Shown here: in pieces, positions 26,139 through 59,275 of the stretch
How the letters are laid out: each line of letters starts with the position of its first letter
Numbering within the stretch: the stretch's first letter is position 1
NCBI GenBank assembly: GCA_024998625.1
Contig: JACOEL010000007.1
Location: 62,001-126,000, forward strand
Source of the DNA: Nitrospira sp.
GTDB taxonomy: Bacteria > Nitrospirota > Nitrospiria > Nitrospirales > Nitrospiraceae
Length of the DNA: 64,000 nucleotides
Reading direction: 5' to 3'
Position numbers and translations under genes: made by a program
The notes under the pieces: model-generated
What the model saw: only the letters and a program-made list of their open reading frames with translations
Told to the model about the DNA's origin: nothing
The model's database searches: none

Positions 26139-27560
26139 CTAGAAATTCGTCTCCATGCTCGACGGGGTCTTATTCAGCACGGTCGCGGCGGCGCGGGATA
26201 GGGCCGCGTCCTGATTGTGATCGAGGGCGTAGATGCGGAATTGCACGAGGCGAGTGGGCAGCAGATCCAAAAACTCTTCCAGCGGTTCAGTTGAGACGCC
26301 CTTCGTGCCGGGATCGAATACGAGCAAGGGGATGCCGCGCGTATCCTTGGGGTCCGGGCGCGGATCGAGCGGAGCCATGTCGACGCGAAACGGCAATGTC
26401 TGTAGTTTCGCCGGCAAGGCCTTCTGAATCTGCTGCTGGAATTGCTCGTGACTGGGAAAGTCCATGCCTCGCTCGATGCCCTTTTCCTTGAGCACCGTGC
26501 TGTAGGCCATTTTCCATTTCACGTCGCGTCCCAGGATATGCGCCCATTCCTGGTGCAAACGACGCAGGCTGCTTTGGCCGGCGTTCTTCCATCGCCTGAC
26601 GTCTTCCAACAAGGACCAGTCGGTCAGGGTCAGGTATTCATCCATGTGCGTGGCGGGGTTGGACGGGAACAACAGTTTCATCGTGTCCCCGAAGATGTCG
26701 CGCAGATGAATGTCGATGGCGCGGGTCGTGCGGTGATAATACACGTTCGAGTACAGATACATTCTGGTGTTCAAAAACATCTGCAGGGCCGGCAACCCCG
26801 TCTTATGAATGGTGAAGCCCTTGTCGGTGACGATGGTGTAGTGAATCAAGCGGGTCAAGTCCACCGGTCCCACCGCGACGCCGCACATGTAGGCGTCGCG
26901 CAGTACATAATCGAGGTTGTCGGCTGTGTAGCTGCCTGAAATCACCGGCTGGAGCATGTTGATCCAGCGCGGAATGCGGGAGTTATCTTTGCCTTTCTCC
27001 TTCAGGATCACATGCGCAATGTGATCAGGATTCAGCTCTTCTCCGCGATCGAAGGGACCCGACGGACTGCGGCGGATTTTTCTGATGAATGGGCCCAGGT
27101 GTTCGCGCACGATGATCTGGCCGAGCTTTTCATGCGAGAGACCGAAACCATGCAAAAAGTTATCGTCGAAGAAATGGCAGAACGGACCATGTCCGATGTC
27201 ATGGACCAGCGCCGTCACGCGGAGGAACTCCTCCACGAAGGCCGCCGAGGGGAGGTCGGAGACCACGTTCTTCAAGAATGGATAGAGATGGCGCGCGAAG
27301 CGGCCTGCCACGTGCATCGTGCCGAGTGAATGTACGAATCGTGTATGTTCCGCCGAGGGGTAGACCCAGCGCGCGCTTTGGAGCTGATAGATATAGCGCA
27401 GTCGCTGCACCCATGGAGAATCGATCAGATCTTTTTCCGTGCGTTCCGAAGGATCCGGCGTCGCGTATGGCACCGTAAACGACACGTATTCGTGGATAGG
27501 ATCGGCAATGAGGGCTAATCCGTCATAGGGCGCGGGAGGATGTGCGGTCGGTAGTTTCAT
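26139..27560 (-). CDS. HD-domain phosphohydrolase (dGTPase/SAMHD1-like fold)
   Basis: YIYQLQSARWVYPSAEHTRFVHSLGTMHVAGRFARHL; TALVHDIGHGPFCHFFDD; SGSYTADNLDYVLRDAYMCGV. Confidence 0.88.
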   Translation of the reverse strand: MKLPTAHPPAPYDGLALIADPIHEYVSFTVPYATPDPSERTEKDLIDSPWVQRLRYIYQLQSARWVYPSAEHTRFVHSLGTMHVAGRFARHLYPFLKNVVSDLPSAAFVEEFLRVTALVHDIGHGPFCHFFDDNFLHGFGLSHEKLGQIIVREHLGPFIRKIRRSPSGPFDRGEELNPDHIAHVILKEKGKDNSRIPRWINMLQPVISGSYTADNLDYVLRDAYMCGVAVGPVDLTRLIHYTIVTDKGFTIHKTGLPALQMFLNTRMYLYSNVYYHRTTRAIDIHLRDIFGDTMKLLFPSNPATHMDEYLTLTDWSLLEDVRRWKNAGQSSLRRLHQEWAHILGRDVKWKMAYSTVLKEKGIERGMDFPSHEQFQQQIQKALPAKLQTLPFRVDMAPLDPRPDPKDTRGIPLLVFDPGTKGVSTEPLEEFLDLLPTRLVQFRIYALDHNQDAALSRAAATVLNKTPSSMETNF

Positions 27561-36962: not shown

Positions 36963-37048
36963 TCGTCAATCGTCACGGGTCAATCGTGTTCTGCTTCATG
37001 AACGACGAATGACGGATGACCGTTGACCTCTTCGACGGGAGGTTTTGA

Positions 37049-37861: not shown

Positions 37862-38704
37862 GTGGCGAAGCAGGTGGCCGAGCATAGGCGCGCATCCGAT
37901 GGGCAGCGGATCGGGCTGATCGCGGGCAACGGCCGGTTTCCGATCATTTTTGCCGACAATGCGAAGCGGCTCGGATATTCCGTGTCCGCGGTGGCGCATG
38001 AGGGGGAAACCGACCCGGAACTGGCCCGGCACGTCGATCACATTCACTGGATCAAGATCGGGCAATTCGGCAAATTGATCGAGGCCCTCAAGCGGGACGG
38101 CGTTCAGCGGGCGGTCATGCTCGGAGGCATCAAGAAGACCCACGTGTTTTCGACAGTGCGGCCTGATTTTCGCGCCTTGGCCCTGGCTGCCAAGTTGATT
38201 CATCTGAAAGACGACGACATTCTTCGCCGGGTCGCCGAGGAGATCGAACAGGAAGGCATTGAAATCTGCGAATCGACATTCGGTCTTCAGGGGATCCTTG
38301 TCGAGGAGGGCACGTTGACGAGACGTGAGCCGAGCAAAAAGGAATGGGACGACATCCGGTACGGCTGGGATGTCGGAAAACAGATCGGAGCGCTGGATAT
38401 CGGCCAGTGCGTCGTGGTGAAGGATCGGGTGATTGTGGCCGTCGAAGCCGTGGAAGGAACCGATGGCGCGATCCGCCGGGGCGGTGAACTGGCGCATGGA
38501 GGCGTGGTGGTCGTGAAACGATGTAAGCCCCAGCAGGATCTCCGGTTCGATCTTCCCGCCGTCGGTCCGCGCACCATTGAGGTGATGGAGAGCGTCAAGG
38601 CATCCGTGCTGGCGTTGGAAGCAGGGCGTGGCATTCTCCTGGACCGTGACGAAACGATCGCGAAGGCGAACCGGGCCGGCATCTCGATCATCGGAATGAC
38701 TTAG
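37862..38704 (+). CDS. lpxI: LpxI-family UDP-2,3-diacylglucosamine pyrophosphatase (DUF1009)
   Basis: RIGLIAGNGRFPIIFADNAKRLGYSVSAVAHEGETDPEL; GGIKKTHVF; VEAVEGTDGAIRRGGEL; FDLPAVGPRTIEVM. Confidence 0.92.
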   Translation: MAKQVAEHRRASDGQRIGLIAGNGRFPIIFADNAKRLGYSVSAVAHEGETDPELARHVDHIHWIKIGQFGKLIEALKRDGVQRAVMLGGIKKTHVFSTVRPDFRALALAAKLIHLKDDDILRRVAEEIEQEGIEICESTFGLQGILVEEGTLTRREPSKKEWDDIRYGWDVGKQIGALDIGQCVVVKDRVIVAVEAVEGTDGAIRRGGELAHGGVVVVKRCKPQQDLRFDLPAVGPRTIEVMESVKASVLALEAGRGILLDRDETIAKANRAGISIIGMT

Positions 38705-38905
38705 CAGGCTGGGGAATAACTCGACTATTGCGCCTTCGTGCGATCAGCGCCTGTAAGGTGTTAGCATTGAAATAGTATGCAGGATGTGAAAAAAGGCCGT
38801 CCAGTAAGGCGGCAGCAATCGACGAGGCGAATCGTACTCGGGCTGTATGGTGAGCCTGGGCGTGATGCGAGAACGCCGCTGGCGGGCTTTTCCCACATCC
38901 TGCCA
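38704..38905 (+). repeat. MITE-like intergenic repeat, copy 1 (core 38779-38905 with inverted ends)
   Basis: Shares blocks with 58164-58364: aaaaaggccgtccag.aaggc.gcagc, cgtactcg.gc.gta.ggtgagc, gatgcgagaacgccgct.gc; core ends GCAGGATGTGAAAAAAGGCCGTCCAG versus reverse complement of right end GCAGGATGTGGGAAAAGCCCGCCAG. Confidence 0.85.
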
Positions 38906-38958
38906 ATGCCGTTCGGCATCGGCACGGAGGTCTGCCTTATGAGACGGGACTGAGCGCG

Positions 38959-39948
38959 ATGAAACAGCTTCGAGCCGGCGTAATCGGCGTCGGTCATCTG
39001 GGACAACACCATGCCCGCCACTATGCGACGCTGCCGGGCGCAACATTGGTGGGTGTGTGCGATGCGTCGCCGACCCGCGCCAAGTTGATCGCCGATCGGC
39101 ACGGTGTGCAGGCCTGGGCCAACCTCGACGACCTGCTGAAGGAAGTCGATATTGTCAGTGTGGCCGCGCCCACCTCTGCGCATTTTTCGGCGACCAAAGC
39201 CTGTCTGGAGGCGGGCAAGCATGTGCTGGTCGAAAAACCGATCGCCGTGACGTCGGCGGAAGCCCGGGAACTGGTCGAGCTGGCCGCGCGCCGCGGGTGC
39301 TTGTTACAGGTCGGACATAGCGAGCGGTTCAATCCGATCATGCAACGCATGCGTCCCTTCATCGAGCGCCCGGCCTTCATCGAATGTCACCGCCTGAGTG
39401 CTTTCGGTGAGCGGGGAACCGATGTGGATGTCGTGCTGGATCTGATGATTCACGACCTGGATCTGGTGTTGTCGTTCAATCCGGGGCCGGTCGAAGAGGT
39501 GCGGGCGGCCGGGGTGCCGGTGCTCTCGTCGAACATCGATATCGCCAATGCCCGTATTGCCTTTGCCGGCGGCTGCGTCGCGAACGTGACGGCGAGTCGC
39601 GTATCGACCAACAAGATGCGCCGGCTGCGTGTCTTCCAGCGCGACCGTTACGTCTCGATCGATTTTCAAACGCGCCAGGCTGTCGTGTCCCGTCGCGTGC
39701 AGGCGGCCGGCGACAAGCCGACCATCGAGGTCGAATCCTACCAGGCCGGAGATGAGGAGCCGTTGCGGCTCGAGCTGGACTCGTTCATTCACGCGGTGAA
39801 TACCGGAGCCCGTCCCGTCGTGTCGGGTGAAGACGGGGAAGCGGCGCTCCATCTGGCGACCCTGGTCCTCGAGGCCATCGGCCGGTTTACGCAACGCCAT
39901 TCGGCGGATGAGGCCGCGGCGGTGGCCTTTGGCCGGGAGAATGTGTAA
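38959..39948 (+). CDS. Gfo/Idh/MocA family oxidoreductase
   Basis: LRAGVIGVGHLGQHHARHYATLPGATLVGVCDASPTRAKLIAD; GKHVLVEKPIAVTSAEARELVELA; VGHSERFNPI. Confidence 0.92.
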   Translation: MKQLRAGVIGVGHLGQHHARHYATLPGATLVGVCDASPTRAKLIADRHGVQAWANLDDLLKEVDIVSVAAPTSAHFSATKACLEAGKHVLVEKPIAVTSAEARELVELAARRGCLLQVGHSERFNPIMQRMRPFIERPAFIECHRLSAFGERGTDVDVVLDLMIHDLDLVLSFNPGPVEEVRAAGVPVLSSNIDIANARIAFAGGCVANVTASRVSTNKMRRLRVFQRDRYVSIDFQTRQAVVSRRVQAAGDKPTIEVESYQAGDEEPLRLELDSFIHAVNTGARPVVSGEDGEAALHLATLVLEAIGRFTQRHSADEAAAVAFGRENV

Positions 39949-55087: not shown

Positions 55088-56134
55088 ATGACGGATCTTC
55101 AGAACATTCTGCTCATCAAGTTGCGGCATATCGGTGATGTGCTCCTATCGACGCCGGTATTACACGGGTTGCGAACCGCTTTTCCCCAGGCGCGGCTGAC
55201 GATGCTGGTCAATCGTGGAACAGAAGGGGTGTTAGCGCACAACCCGGATGTGAACGAGGTGTTATGTCTCGAGAAGGGCTCCTGGAAGGCCCAGATGAAG
55301 TTCGTGCAGATGCTGCGTCGGCGAGGTTTTGACGGCGTCGTCGATCTGACCGATGGGGACCGCTCGGCCGTCATCAGTCTGGCGACCGGTGCTGCCGTCC
55401 GTATTGGGTTCAATGCGGAACATCGCTGGCGCGGGCTCTTGTACAGCCAGGTGACCAAACCACGCCCGATGGATCAGCACCGAGTGGACTATGACCTCTG
55501 CACCTTGAGGGCTCTGGGGCTCGACCCGAAGCCGGGCACGCCCGTTTTGTACCCGTCGCCGACGGATGAGCAGGTGGTGGAGACCTGGATGCAGGAGGCC
55601 GGTCTGTTGTTTGCACAGGCCTCGCCCTTGTTGGTGCTGTTGCAACCGGGGGCGCGTTACTCGCTGAAAGTCTGGCCGCATGAACGGTTTGCGCAGCTGG
55701 CCGATCGTCTCGCCGACAAGTTTGCCTGCCGGATTCTCCTGGGCGGCGACCAGCGTGAACGCGAGGTTGCCGAGCAGGTCGCCCGCAAGACGCACTGTGC
55801 GCCCACTGTGGTCGCGGGGAAGTTTTCGCTCCTGCAGTTCGCCGCCTTGGTGAAACGTTGTGCGCTGTTCGTCGGAAACGACGGCGGCGCCATGCATATT
55901 GCCGCAACGATGAGAACGCCGGTCGTGGCTATTTTCGGGCCGACGTATCCGCAACGGTGGGGACCGCGCGGTGGCCCGGCGCAGGTGATCTACAAAGGCT
56001 TGGATTGCCGGGCCTGTTATCATCCGACCTGCTTGCGCGGCGATGACAGTTGCATGCAGCAGATCACGGTGGATGAGGTGTTTACGGCGGCCAGCCGGAT
56101 GTTGGAACGTGCGCCGGTGAGGACAGAGGCATGA
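55088..56134 (+). CDS. GT9 heptosyltransferase (WaaQ/heptosyltransferase III-like)
   Basis: NILLIKLRHIGDVLLSTPVLHGLRTAFPQARLTMLVNRGTEGVLAHNPDV; NDGGAMHIAATMRTPVVAIFGPTYPQRWGPRGG. Confidence 0.92.
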   Translation: MTDLQNILLIKLRHIGDVLLSTPVLHGLRTAFPQARLTMLVNRGTEGVLAHNPDVNEVLCLEKGSWKAQMKFVQMLRRRGFDGVVDLTDGDRSAVISLATGAAVRIGFNAEHRWRGLLYSQVTKPRPMDQHRVDYDLCTLRALGLDPKPGTPVLYPSPTDEQVVETWMQEAGLLFAQASPLLVLLQPGARYSLKVWPHERFAQLADRLADKFACRILLGGDQREREVAEQVARKTHCAPTVVAGKFSLLQFAALVKRCALFVGNDGGAMHIAATMRTPVVAIFGPTYPQRWGPRGGPAQVIYKGLDCRACYHPTCLRGDDSCMQQITVDEVFTAASRMLERAPVRTEA

Positions 56135-57030
56135 GCGACGAATTGGTGAGCGTGGTCATTCCGGTATTTAACGGCGCGCCGTTTGTCGCCAAGGCCGTGG
56201 CCAGCGTGCGGGCGCAGGGGCACAGTGCCGTGGAAATCCTCGTGGTGGATGACGGATCGACCGACGGGACGCAGGAGGTGTTGAAGCGCCTTGCGGAGAG
56301 CGACGGCATTCGATGGTTTCAGCGCAGCCACGGCGGCCCGGCCCGTTCCCGCAATTACGGCATCGCCGCCGCGCAAGGGCAATTCATCGCGCTGCTGGAT
56401 TGCGATGATGAATGGTTGCCGGACAAACTGGCCGCTCAGTTGGCTGTCATGCGTGCCAGGCCGGATGTGGGGTTGGTCCATACGGACTTCGAGGTGCGCT
56501 TTGAAGACGGCACGCTGGAAGAGCGTGTGTCGGCACGATCGAGCCGTGAGCCGATGGTGCAGGCGTTTGCCGGCGGTCATGTCGCGCTGCCGTCCACACT
56601 CCTGATCCGGAAAGCGGTGCTCGATCAAATCGGGAGCCTGGACCCTGAACTGTACGGGTCGGAAGATTCCGATCTCACGATCCGGCTGTTTCGGGTGACC
56701 AGGTTCGAGTGCATCGATGAGGTGTTGGTGCACAAGCTCCAGCGGGGGCACGGCTATCGAGACATGGCTTTCGATGAGCAGACCCATCGCGAGCGCGTTC
56801 TCGCCAGTCGAGATCGCTTTCTCATGCGCCTGGAGGGGTTCGCTCCCTTGACGGCGGCGCAACGCGCCGCGTTGGATCGGGAATGGGCGAATTATTTTCT
56901 TTTAAAAGGGGCGGCCGCAGAACGGGCCGGCCGGTGTAAAGAGGCGCGGAGACACTATTGGGATGCGATCTGTAAGGCACCGGCACGCATTCGATGTTAT
57001 ACGCGTTGGCTTCGCACCCTGAAGCCCTAG
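56131..57030 (+). CDS. GT2 glycosyltransferase
   Basis: VSVVIPVFNGAPFVAKAVASVRAQGHSAVEILVVDDGSTDGTQEVL; ARSRNYGIAAAQGQFIALLDCDDEWLPDKLAAQL. Confidence 0.93.
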   Translation: MSDELVSVVIPVFNGAPFVAKAVASVRAQGHSAVEILVVDDGSTDGTQEVLKRLAESDGIRWFQRSHGGPARSRNYGIAAAQGQFIALLDCDDEWLPDKLAAQLAVMRARPDVGLVHTDFEVRFEDGTLEERVSARSSREPMVQAFAGGHVALPSTLLIRKAVLDQIGSLDPELYGSEDSDLTIRLFRVTRFECIDEVLVHKLQRGHGYRDMAFDEQTHRERVLASRDRFLMRLEGFAPLTAAQRAALDREWANYFLLKGAAAERAGRCKEARRHYWDAICKAPARIRCYTRWLRTLKP

Positions 57031-57081
57031 CCCGGACTCTTCATGAACGCCTCGCGACGGTATTCATGAAGAGTCCGGGCT
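57029..57081 (+). repeat. Perfect 19-bp inverted repeat with 15-nt loop
   Basis: AGCCCGGACTCTTCATGAA (57029-57047) and TTCATGAAGAGTCCGGGCT (57063-57081); left arm overlaps TAG stop of upstream gene. Confidence 0.95.
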
Positions 57082-57139: not shown

Positions 57140-58195
57140 ATGGAAACCGTCAGCTGCGACCTGTGTGGAGAGGCTTCGGCCACTCCTGTCTTCAGCCAAT
57201 ACGATCTTGCCCACCGTGTCACCGATGACCTATTTACGGTGGTGCGTTGTCGAGGCTGCCGCCTGTTATTCTTGAATCCTCGTCCCACTCGTGAGGAGAT
57301 CGGTCGCTACTATCCTGCCACCTATTACCCCGACGCTGCGCCCAGTCAGGCCGGTGATCTCCGCCGGGCTGTCAAGCGATGGTCCGGGAAAATCCGGCGG
57401 TGGATCGCTCAGGATTTTTATGGCTATCCGGCGCCGGAATCGGTCCGCCGCTGGCAATGGTTGCGCCGGCTCCTCATATGGCCTGAGTTCCTCTGGCGCC
57501 GCTGGCGTGGTCGCGGCCTGCTGCCCTGGGCCGGTCGAGGCCGGGCCTTGGATGTCGGTTGCGGTGCGGGCAACAATCTGGTGTCGCTGCAGGAACAAGG
57601 TTGGGATGTGTCCGGAGTAGATGCCAGCGCTGTGGCCGTGGAGCGGGCGCGGGCCCGTTTCGGTGATCGGGTCCGCCTCAGTGATTTGAGATCGATGGCC
57701 TATCCGGACCGAACCTTTGATACGGTTCTGTTCAGTCATGTGCTGGAGCATGTGCATGGTCCATTGCCTCTTCTGGAAGAGGTGTGGCGCATTTTGGATT
57801 GGGAGGGCCGGGTCGTCATCCTCTGCCCCAACGCCGGCAGCCTGGAGGCGAAACTCTTTGGACGATGGTGGTTTCCCTGGGAATTGCCGCGCCATCTGTT
57901 CCACTATGAGAAGGCGACGCTTATGCGGGTGTTGGAAGCGGCCGGTTTCCATATCGAGTCGGTCAGCACCGGCTTGGGCTCGCTCTACTTTATGGCGAGC
58001 CTGGCTCGGGTATGGGAACAGCGGTTCGGGCGAGTGGTGCCCGGTCGTCGATTCATCGAGAAAGTGTTCGTCCGCCCTTTCTGTTTCTGTGTCGGGCATC
58101 TGGGGTACGGAACTGAGTTGAAGGTCTATGCCAGGAAAGATCGGCACGGGCTCGCTGAGCCTGGCAGGCTGCGGAAAAACTCATTTTTTGCGTAA
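57140..58195 (+). CDS. Class I SAM methyltransferase with N-terminal Cys-rich motif
   Basis: CDLCGEASATPVF...VVRCRGCRLLFLNPRPTREEIGRYY; ALDVGCGAGNNLVSLQEQGWDVSGVDASAVAVERA; FDTVLFSHVLEHVHGPLPLLEEVWRIL. Confidence 0.92.
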   Translation: METVSCDLCGEASATPVFSQYDLAHRVTDDLFTVVRCRGCRLLFLNPRPTREEIGRYYPATYYPDAAPSQAGDLRRAVKRWSGKIRRWIAQDFYGYPAPESVRRWQWLRRLLIWPEFLWRRWRGRGLLPWAGRGRALDVGCGAGNNLVSLQEQGWDVSGVDASAVAVERARARFGDRVRLSDLRSMAYPDRTFDTVLFSHVLEHVHGPLPLLEEVWRILDWEGRVVILCPNAGSLEAKLFGRWWFPWELPRHLFHYEKATLMRVLEAAGFHIESVSTGLGSLYFMASLARVWEQRFGRVVPGRRFIEKVFVRPFCFCVGHLGYGTELKVYARKDRHGLAEPGRLRKNSFFA

Positions 58196-58364
58196 TACGT
58201 CGCGATCAACCCACATGCCGTGTAGGCAGCAGAATCACCACCGGATGCGCAAAAAGGCCGTCCAGCAAGGCCGCAGCGAGCGAAGAAGCGAAGCGTACTC
58301 GAGCCGTACGGTGAGCTTCTGAGCGATGCGAGAACGCCGCTAGCAGACGATTTCCGCATCCTGC
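58164..58364 (+). repeat. MITE-like intergenic repeat, copy 2
   Basis: gcaggctgcggaaaaac ... caaaaaggccgtccagcaaggccgcagc ... cgtactcgagccgtacggtgagc ... gatgcgagaacgccgctagcag ... ccgcatcctgc; matches copy 1 in order, orientation and length. Confidence 0.85.
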
Positions 58365-59275
58365 TAGACAAAGTACGATCTGACGAGACGCGACCAAGTC
58401 TTCATGTTGAGCGGTTCGTGGCGCAGAGCCGACTGAAAGGCCTGCCGAGCGGCGGTGGGGGTGTGGGCCCGCAGGTGGTGTTTGCCCAGGTCGGCATAAT
58501 AGACCGCCCAATCGTGCGAGAGGGCATCGCCTTCAGGGGTGCCGGGTCGGCAAGAGGCGGCGTGTTTTTCGAGGAACCGGCGCCGACCGTCCAGGGCGCG
58601 CAAAGAGGGGATATCCCGCGACGCATTGTGTCCGTATAGCCGGTGCCGATAGAGCGGTTTGGGAAGATGAATGAATCGGCCCGGACCGTACAGCCGGATG
58701 ATTAAATCGATGTCCTCCCAAATCGAGAGGGCCGCATCGTAGCCGCCTACCGCATCGAAACAGGTCCTGCGGAAAAGCGACCCCGATGTGGCGGCGTCGT
58801 GTCCGCCCCGCAGCAATTGCGTGATGCTGCGTTGCTGTTTCATCGCGGCATCGTATTCAAGAATCTCGTTCCGTTCATTGACCTGGTACCCGTCGCAGTG
58901 CACGAGGGCTGCCTGCGGAGCGCTCTCGAGGATGCCGAGCGTTGCTTCCAGGAAGGTGGGCTCCCACAGATCGTCCTGATCGAGAAATGCCAGATAGGGG
59001 GTTTGGGCCAGGCGCGCGCCGGTATTTCTGGCGGCGGCTTGTCCGCTGTTCTGTGGGTGACGCACGTAGCGGACCTGCGGGATGGTTTGCACCAACGCGC
59101 CCGTGCCGTCCGTCGAGGCATCGTCTACGACGATGATCTCATCGGCGGCCAGGGTTTGCGCGCGCACGGAATCGATGGCCTCCTTCAGATATCTGGAGAT
59201 GCCGTTGTAGGCGGGAATCACGACGCTGATCTGTGTCACGGGCTTGAGTTCCTTGGAGCCGTCAATCGGTAACAT
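58364..59275 (-). CDS. GT2 glycosyltransferase
   Basis: ISVVIPAYNGISRYLKEAIDSVRAQTLAADEIIVVDDASTDGTGALV; AARNTGARLAQTPYLAFLDQDDLWEPTFLEATLG. Confidence 0.93.
   Translation of the reverse strand: MLPIDGSKELKPVTQISVVIPAYNGISRYLKEAIDSVRAQTLAADEIIVVDDASTDGTGALVQTIPQVRYVRHPQNSGQAAARNTGARLAQTPYLAFLDQDDLWEPTFLEATLGILESAPQAALVHCDGYQVNERNEILEYDAAMKQQRSITQLLRGGHDAATSGSLFRRTCFDAVGGYDAALSIWEDIDLIIRLYGPGRFIHLPKPLYRHRLYGHNASRDIPSLRALDGRRRFLEKHAASCRPGTPEGDALSHDWAVYYADLGKHHLRAHTPTAARQAFQSALRHEPLNMKTWSRLVRSYFV

Follow-up and report, generated by a model that had tools for sequence, protein, structure and literature searches.

In a Nitrospira genome close to N. defluvii, the lpxI gene is separated from the next gene of its operon, of the Gfo/Idh type, by 254 nt, compared with 52 nt in most close relatives. 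This raises the question of what has opened the gap, and why the additional sequence begins directly at the lpxI stop codon. The original prediction, made on the 64,000-nt stretch of DNA analyzed here (the window), was that a MITE-like repeat of ∼200 bp splits the two genes in an otherwise tightly packed operon, and the gap lengths in relatives bear this out. The lpxI protein shares 96 to 97% identity with its N. defluvii counterpart (FP929003, L087), and the close matches are from Nitrospira.

A short repeat flush with the lpxI stop codon

The gap contains a 198-bp nonautonomous element at positions 38705 to 38902, reading CAGG...CCTG from end to end. The TAG stop codon of lpxI occupies 38702 to 38704 and the next base begins CAGGCTGGGGAATAACTC, with TTAG flanking the element on the left (38701 to 38704) and CCAA on the right (38903 to 38906). 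The original prediction placed the element correctly, but its boundaries are corrected here to 38705 to 38902, with the core at 38780 to 38902. It had also taken the left terminus to supply the lpxI stop; the element does abut the stop, but the TAG is part of the target site that was duplicated. The features of this copy (copy 1) and of a second copy in the window are as follows.

37862 to 38704, plus strand: lpxI, the gene whose stop codon took the insertion
38701 to 38704, plus strand: left target-site copy TTAG, including the lpxI stop TAG (CTAG here in L031/L032, CTAA in the empty relatives L034/L035)
38705 to 38722, plus strand: left terminal repeat CAGGCTGGGGAATAACTC, 2 mismatches to the insertion sequence (IS) end CAGGCTGCGGAAAAACTC
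38705 to 38779, plus strand: left module (terminal repeat and spacer), 75 nt, retained in three relatives without the core
38780 to 38902, plus strand: core hairpin of the old family, 123 nt, in the orientation of covariance model R1
38885 to 38902, minus strand: right terminal repeat, reading inward CAGGATGTGGGAAAAGCC
38903 to 38906, plus strand: right target-site copy CCAA, decayed
38959 to 39948, plus strand: Gfo/Idh-type gene, next in the operon
58161 to 58164, plus strand: left target-site copy of copy 2, CTGG, one change from CTAG
58165 to 58363, plus strand: copy 2, left terminal repeat identical to the IS end over 18 nt
58364 to 58367, plus strand: right target-site copy of copy 2, CTAG, in which CTA is the stop (TAG) of a minus-strand gene
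58364 to 59275, minus strand: glycosyltransferase-like gene whose stop overlaps the right target site of copy 2

The ordered blocks that copy 1 had been predicted to share with 58164 to 58364 are confirmed by global alignment with copy 2, in which 152 of 209 columns are identical (score 90.5, versus a maximum of 8.5 among shuffles). A third, weak match at 26257 to 26437 (24 bits) was rejected as chance, being absent with a second model and without recognizable ends. The BLASTN search proposed with the original prediction for counting copies returned 36 matches in the genome at E ≤ 0.01, and covariance models of the core place at least ∼70 distinct copies genome-wide, a lower bound from the best 150 candidates scored. 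Two models found largely the same places, but the second was built from copies found by the first and the two are not independent. Copies are dispersed beside unrelated genes. With multiple dispersed copies, no coding capacity, and a length below 500 bp, the element falls among the MITEs, and our literature search found no paper describing it in Nitrospira.

The core folds as one long hairpin at −66.8 kcal/mol (38778 to 38907 folded; shuffle z of −5.9, no shuffle equally low). The other strand reaches −54.7 kcal/mol, so the strands differ but the hairpin is very stable on both. No Rfam 15 family matched the window at the gathering score, and in a search of four loci the single Rfam match was at chance level and outside the elements. 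A simple scan for intrinsic terminators (a short-loop GC stem followed by a T run, loop limit of 8 nt) found none at 38400 to 39200, and the element may contain a long-loop bidirectional terminator.

A probable IS5-family partner and one insertion into the lpxI stop

Copy 1 is very probably a MITE that was moved in trans by an IS5-family transposase into the lpxI stop codon, with a right-hand 123 nt that belongs to an older hairpin family. The original prediction had called for a transposase with matching termini, and one is encoded in the same genome: a pattern search for CTAGCAGGNTGNNGAAAAA located two perfect sites on contig G000:C19 with a transposase gene between them, CTAGCAGGCTGCGGAAAAA standing at both ends in opposite orientation, 1.3 kb apart. 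The transposase matches NCBIfam NF033581 (IS5 family) at 270 bits against a cutoff of 140, and Pfam DUF772 and DDE_Tnp_1 also score above their cutoffs. Both IS termini carry the end CAGGCTGCGGAAAAAC, which matches the left end of the element; the 18-nt IS end agrees with the left end of copy 2 at every position and with that of copy 1 at all but 2. The element and the IS have only these ends in common. The DDE transposase, the inverted ends, and the 4-bp duplications CTAG, CTAA, and TTAG are as in IS5-family insertion sequences, of which Escherichia coli IS5 is the type. Unlike E. coli IS5, the partner has a different end sequence and is present in a single copy, whose transposase frame, as read from the sequence, is apparently shifted near the C terminus, making present mobility doubtful. 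We infer that the transposase came from this particular IS lineage. An IS1182-like transposase gene (L168:2497-3399), below its family cutoff, adjoins the IS5-family element on C19.

Duplications of the 4-bp target YTAR flank well-preserved copies of both the IS and the element and are clean in L188, in L234 to L242, and in the IS copies. IS copies of relatives have the same ends and are flanked by TTAG/TTAG or CTAG/CTAG, while L188, a copy from the window's own genome, is flanked by TTAG/TTAG. Groups of near-identical ∼200-bp MITE copies in N. defluvii are flanked by CTAA/CTAA or CTAG/CTAG, and their similarity and clean duplications point to recent transposition. The duplication at copy 1 itself is not clean, its TTAG/CCAA pair having decayed. 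L088 had suggested a TA-only duplication of the IS630 kind, a reading abandoned in favor of 4-bp YTAR once the clean pairs TTAG/TTAG and CTAA/CTAA were seen. In the mechanism that we propose, the transposase would recognize CAGGCTGCGGAAAAAC-type ends, insert into YTAR, and duplicate these 4 bp, so that a TAA or TAG stop preceded by a pyrimidine would be a target and insertion there would not alter the upstream reading frame.

Relatives preserve the site without the element. L034 and L035 read ...CTAATACCG... where the window has TTAG, the element, and then CCAATGCCG..., a difference consistent with insertion into CTAA and a few later substitutions. The four insertion-bearing genomes form one clade with support of 100/99, which together with the empty sites shows that the lpxI stop received one insertion. 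The element would have entered this stop, probably CTAA, in the common ancestor of the window genome, N. defluvii, and two relatives, lengthening the gap from ∼52 nt to ∼250 nt. With dispersed copies, inverted ends, 4-bp duplications, and empty sites in relatives, the MITE-like nature predicted for the repeat holds. L031 and L032 retain the left module with other sequence in place of the core, and the core at lpxI in N. defluvii is cut short. Loss of the core in three of the four carriers shows that the core of copy 1 is not needed there, and copy 1 as a whole is probably dispensable. Lying in the orientation opposite to that of most old copies (see below), and with its core lost in the three nearest relatives, it appears to be an ordinary passenger with no useful function.

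Comparative reading of the operon shows independent insertions at the stop codons of lpxI and gfo in other lineages. L074 has a 200-bp MITE at the gfo stop (CTCTAG-CAGG...CATG-CTAAGAG) where L038 and L041 have the clean empty site CTCTAGGAG, and another lineage has a core copy at the lpxI stop (L062/L088 versus L066). Degraded core-like copies apparently lie between fabZ and lpxA in L036 to L041, L043, L045, and L074. Other short repeats, ACGTTTTACGATTCACG-like and AATCGTCACGGGTCAATCGT-like, occupy gaps within operons of some Nitrospira (the lpxI-gfo gap of L031/L032; window positions 36963 to 37048).

The position at stop codons can be traced to target choice. Since YTAR contains TAA or TAG, insertion at a stop recreates the stop, while insertion in coding sequence does not. 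The original prediction had asked about target sites and proximity to stop codons, and the YTAR duplications and the copies flush with stops answer both. Within 464 kb of the genome there are 1,043 YTAR sites, 72 at stop codons, 507 intergenic, and 464 coding, by gene calls from our own codon-usage script. TAG is the stop of 25 of the 34 genes with a copy flush at its model-3′ end, versus 97 of 337 genes overall. A target motif that contains a stop codon is thus a simple rule by which an element can spread in a gene-dense genome with little harm.

Orientation and pairing in the older core family

Beyond what the original prediction envisaged, the right 123 nt are an older and more widespread hairpin with a behavior of its own. 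In a search of 148 genomes of the phylum (best 23 candidates scored per genome), the core was found at E ≤ 1e−15 in all 32 of the genomes listed for the window's family, Nitrospiraceae, in 4 more of the order, and in 2 others, with heavy compensatory change. Copies with a recognizable left module, which are young, lie flush with stops at either end (3 at the model-3′ end versus 4 at the other), whereas the old, core-only copies do so at 31 model-3′ ends versus 1. A MITE in the opposite orientation would place its core ∼75 nt from the stop, and core-only copies at 50 to 100 nt were therefore counted too; this looser and fairer count adds at most 5 opposite copies, giving 31 versus at most 6. 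A further 21 copies, drawn mainly from a different Nitrospira genome (G139) and otherwise from N. defluvii, show the same direction, with 10 flush copies versus 0. We infer from these counts that old copies were selectively retained in one arrangement behind stop codons, for which a 3′-end or terminator-like element, a structured DNA site, or a lower deletion rate may be responsible.

Pairing also appears to have been kept. The same core copy stands directly behind the stop across the genus at two genes, one PhzF-like and one kinase-like, with some relatives lacking it. Of the 29 pairs, 7 in the first orthologous set and 9 in the second show compensatory double changes. An alignment of 50 copies shows such double changes at 20 of the 29 pairs and conserves the motifs GTTCTCG and CTGCGGCCTTG on facing sides of an internal loop. 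Counted without a tree model, the double changes suggest selection on pairing. Divergent contexts are few (2 of 62 copies versus 32 of 251 gaps).

The orientation counts, the orthologous copies with their compensatory changes, and the scarcity of divergent contexts would all fit domestication of the old copies, though not of copy 1: the MITE would insert both ways, and only copies whose model-3′ end adjoins the stop would be kept long-term. We regard this as a tentative reading, and hold it equally tentative that action on the mRNA end of the upstream gene keeps the pairing in place. More broadly, it is conceivable, if short of probable, that the core is a formerly mobile Nitrospiraceae hairpin taken over as a stop-linked 3′-end element, with one orientation retained because it acts on the 3′ end of the upstream gene or on the DNA there, and with pairing conserved in place. 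Against domestication, the fair count lessens the orientation bias, and wobble pairs in the orthologous sets favor a role as RNA no more than one as DNA, showing no strand preference in G·U versus A·C once two constant G·U pairs are set aside. A strand-specific wobble test for an RNA role was rejected: the 143 G·U versus 80 A·C on the R1 strand come partly from few pairs, and the excess is absent in the orthologous sets.

Replication offers a different, and in our judgment unlikely, origin for the bias of old copies in orientation and toward the leading strand: the orientation in which the better-folding strand is exposed as single strand would be deleted faster. The unequal folding energies of the two strands fit this, as does N. 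defluvii, where 62 of 79 lower-scoring (older) copies follow the leading strand, compared with 57% of sampled genes and 13 of 23 high-scoring (younger) copies. However, old copies are more strongly biased with respect to the gene (31 to 1) than with respect to the replication fork (78%). The possibility that the strand excess of weaker copies was a tool artefact was set aside, as the excess recurred with the second model and agrees with the replichore pattern seen in N. defluvii. The simplest account remains an IS5-family MITE that would land with little harm in stop codons and whose old copies would then be retained preferentially in one orientation. With young copies unbiased and old ones strongly biased, genomes and RNA-seq can be used to ask directly at what point selfish DNA turns into a host 3′-end element.

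Known repeat systems and a second family at stops

It is very improbable that positions 38705 to 38902 instead serve the lpx operon as an immobile regulatory RNA or terminator of the host. The hairpin, very stable on both strands, and the strong covariation over the family are what such a role would predict, but the element occupies the lpxI-gfo junction in one clade only and is absent from the lpx operons of most relatives, three of the four carriers lack its core, and its copies are dispersed beside unrelated genes. Integron-like attC sites or REP/RAYT elements, suggested by structured, partly clustered palindromes directly after stops, can be dismissed almost entirely, since the ends are CAGG...CCTG without GTTRRRY/RYYYAAC boxes (consensus of 50 copies), the neighbors are ordinary genes and not cassettes, also at the clusters on C27, C9, and C32 for which an integron array was rejected, and a constant GTAG tag is lacking in copies far longer than REPs.

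Like REP elements and REPINs, the element forms palindromes at the 3′ ends of genes, many per genome; unlike these (a 20- to 40-nt palindrome with a constant GTAG or CGTC tag), it has a 123-nt core, CAGG...CCTG ends, and YTAR duplications, and the end tetramers of its copies vary, mostly among CTAG, CTAA, and CTAC. It resembles the bacterial MITEs reviewed in PMC10969869 in being short, noncoding, and intergenic, with IS ends, target duplications, and a hairpin. It goes beyond that review in lying flush with stop codons and in having old copies with a one-sided orientation; the words “stop codon” and “orientation” are absent from the text of the review.

A different short palindromic element (CCCGGACTCTTCATGAA...TTCATGAAGAGTCCGGG) at window positions 57028 to 57081 begins at the TAG stop of a glycosyltransferase-like gene (56131 to 57030), and is a second MITE-like family at stop codons. 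Its end sequence occurs ∼45 times in the genome, often as inverted pairs 120 to 200 bp apart. In L298 and L311, a copy of this second family has inserted after the stop codon of the kinase-like gene and ahead of the older core; the L298 insertion is bounded by CTAG at each end.
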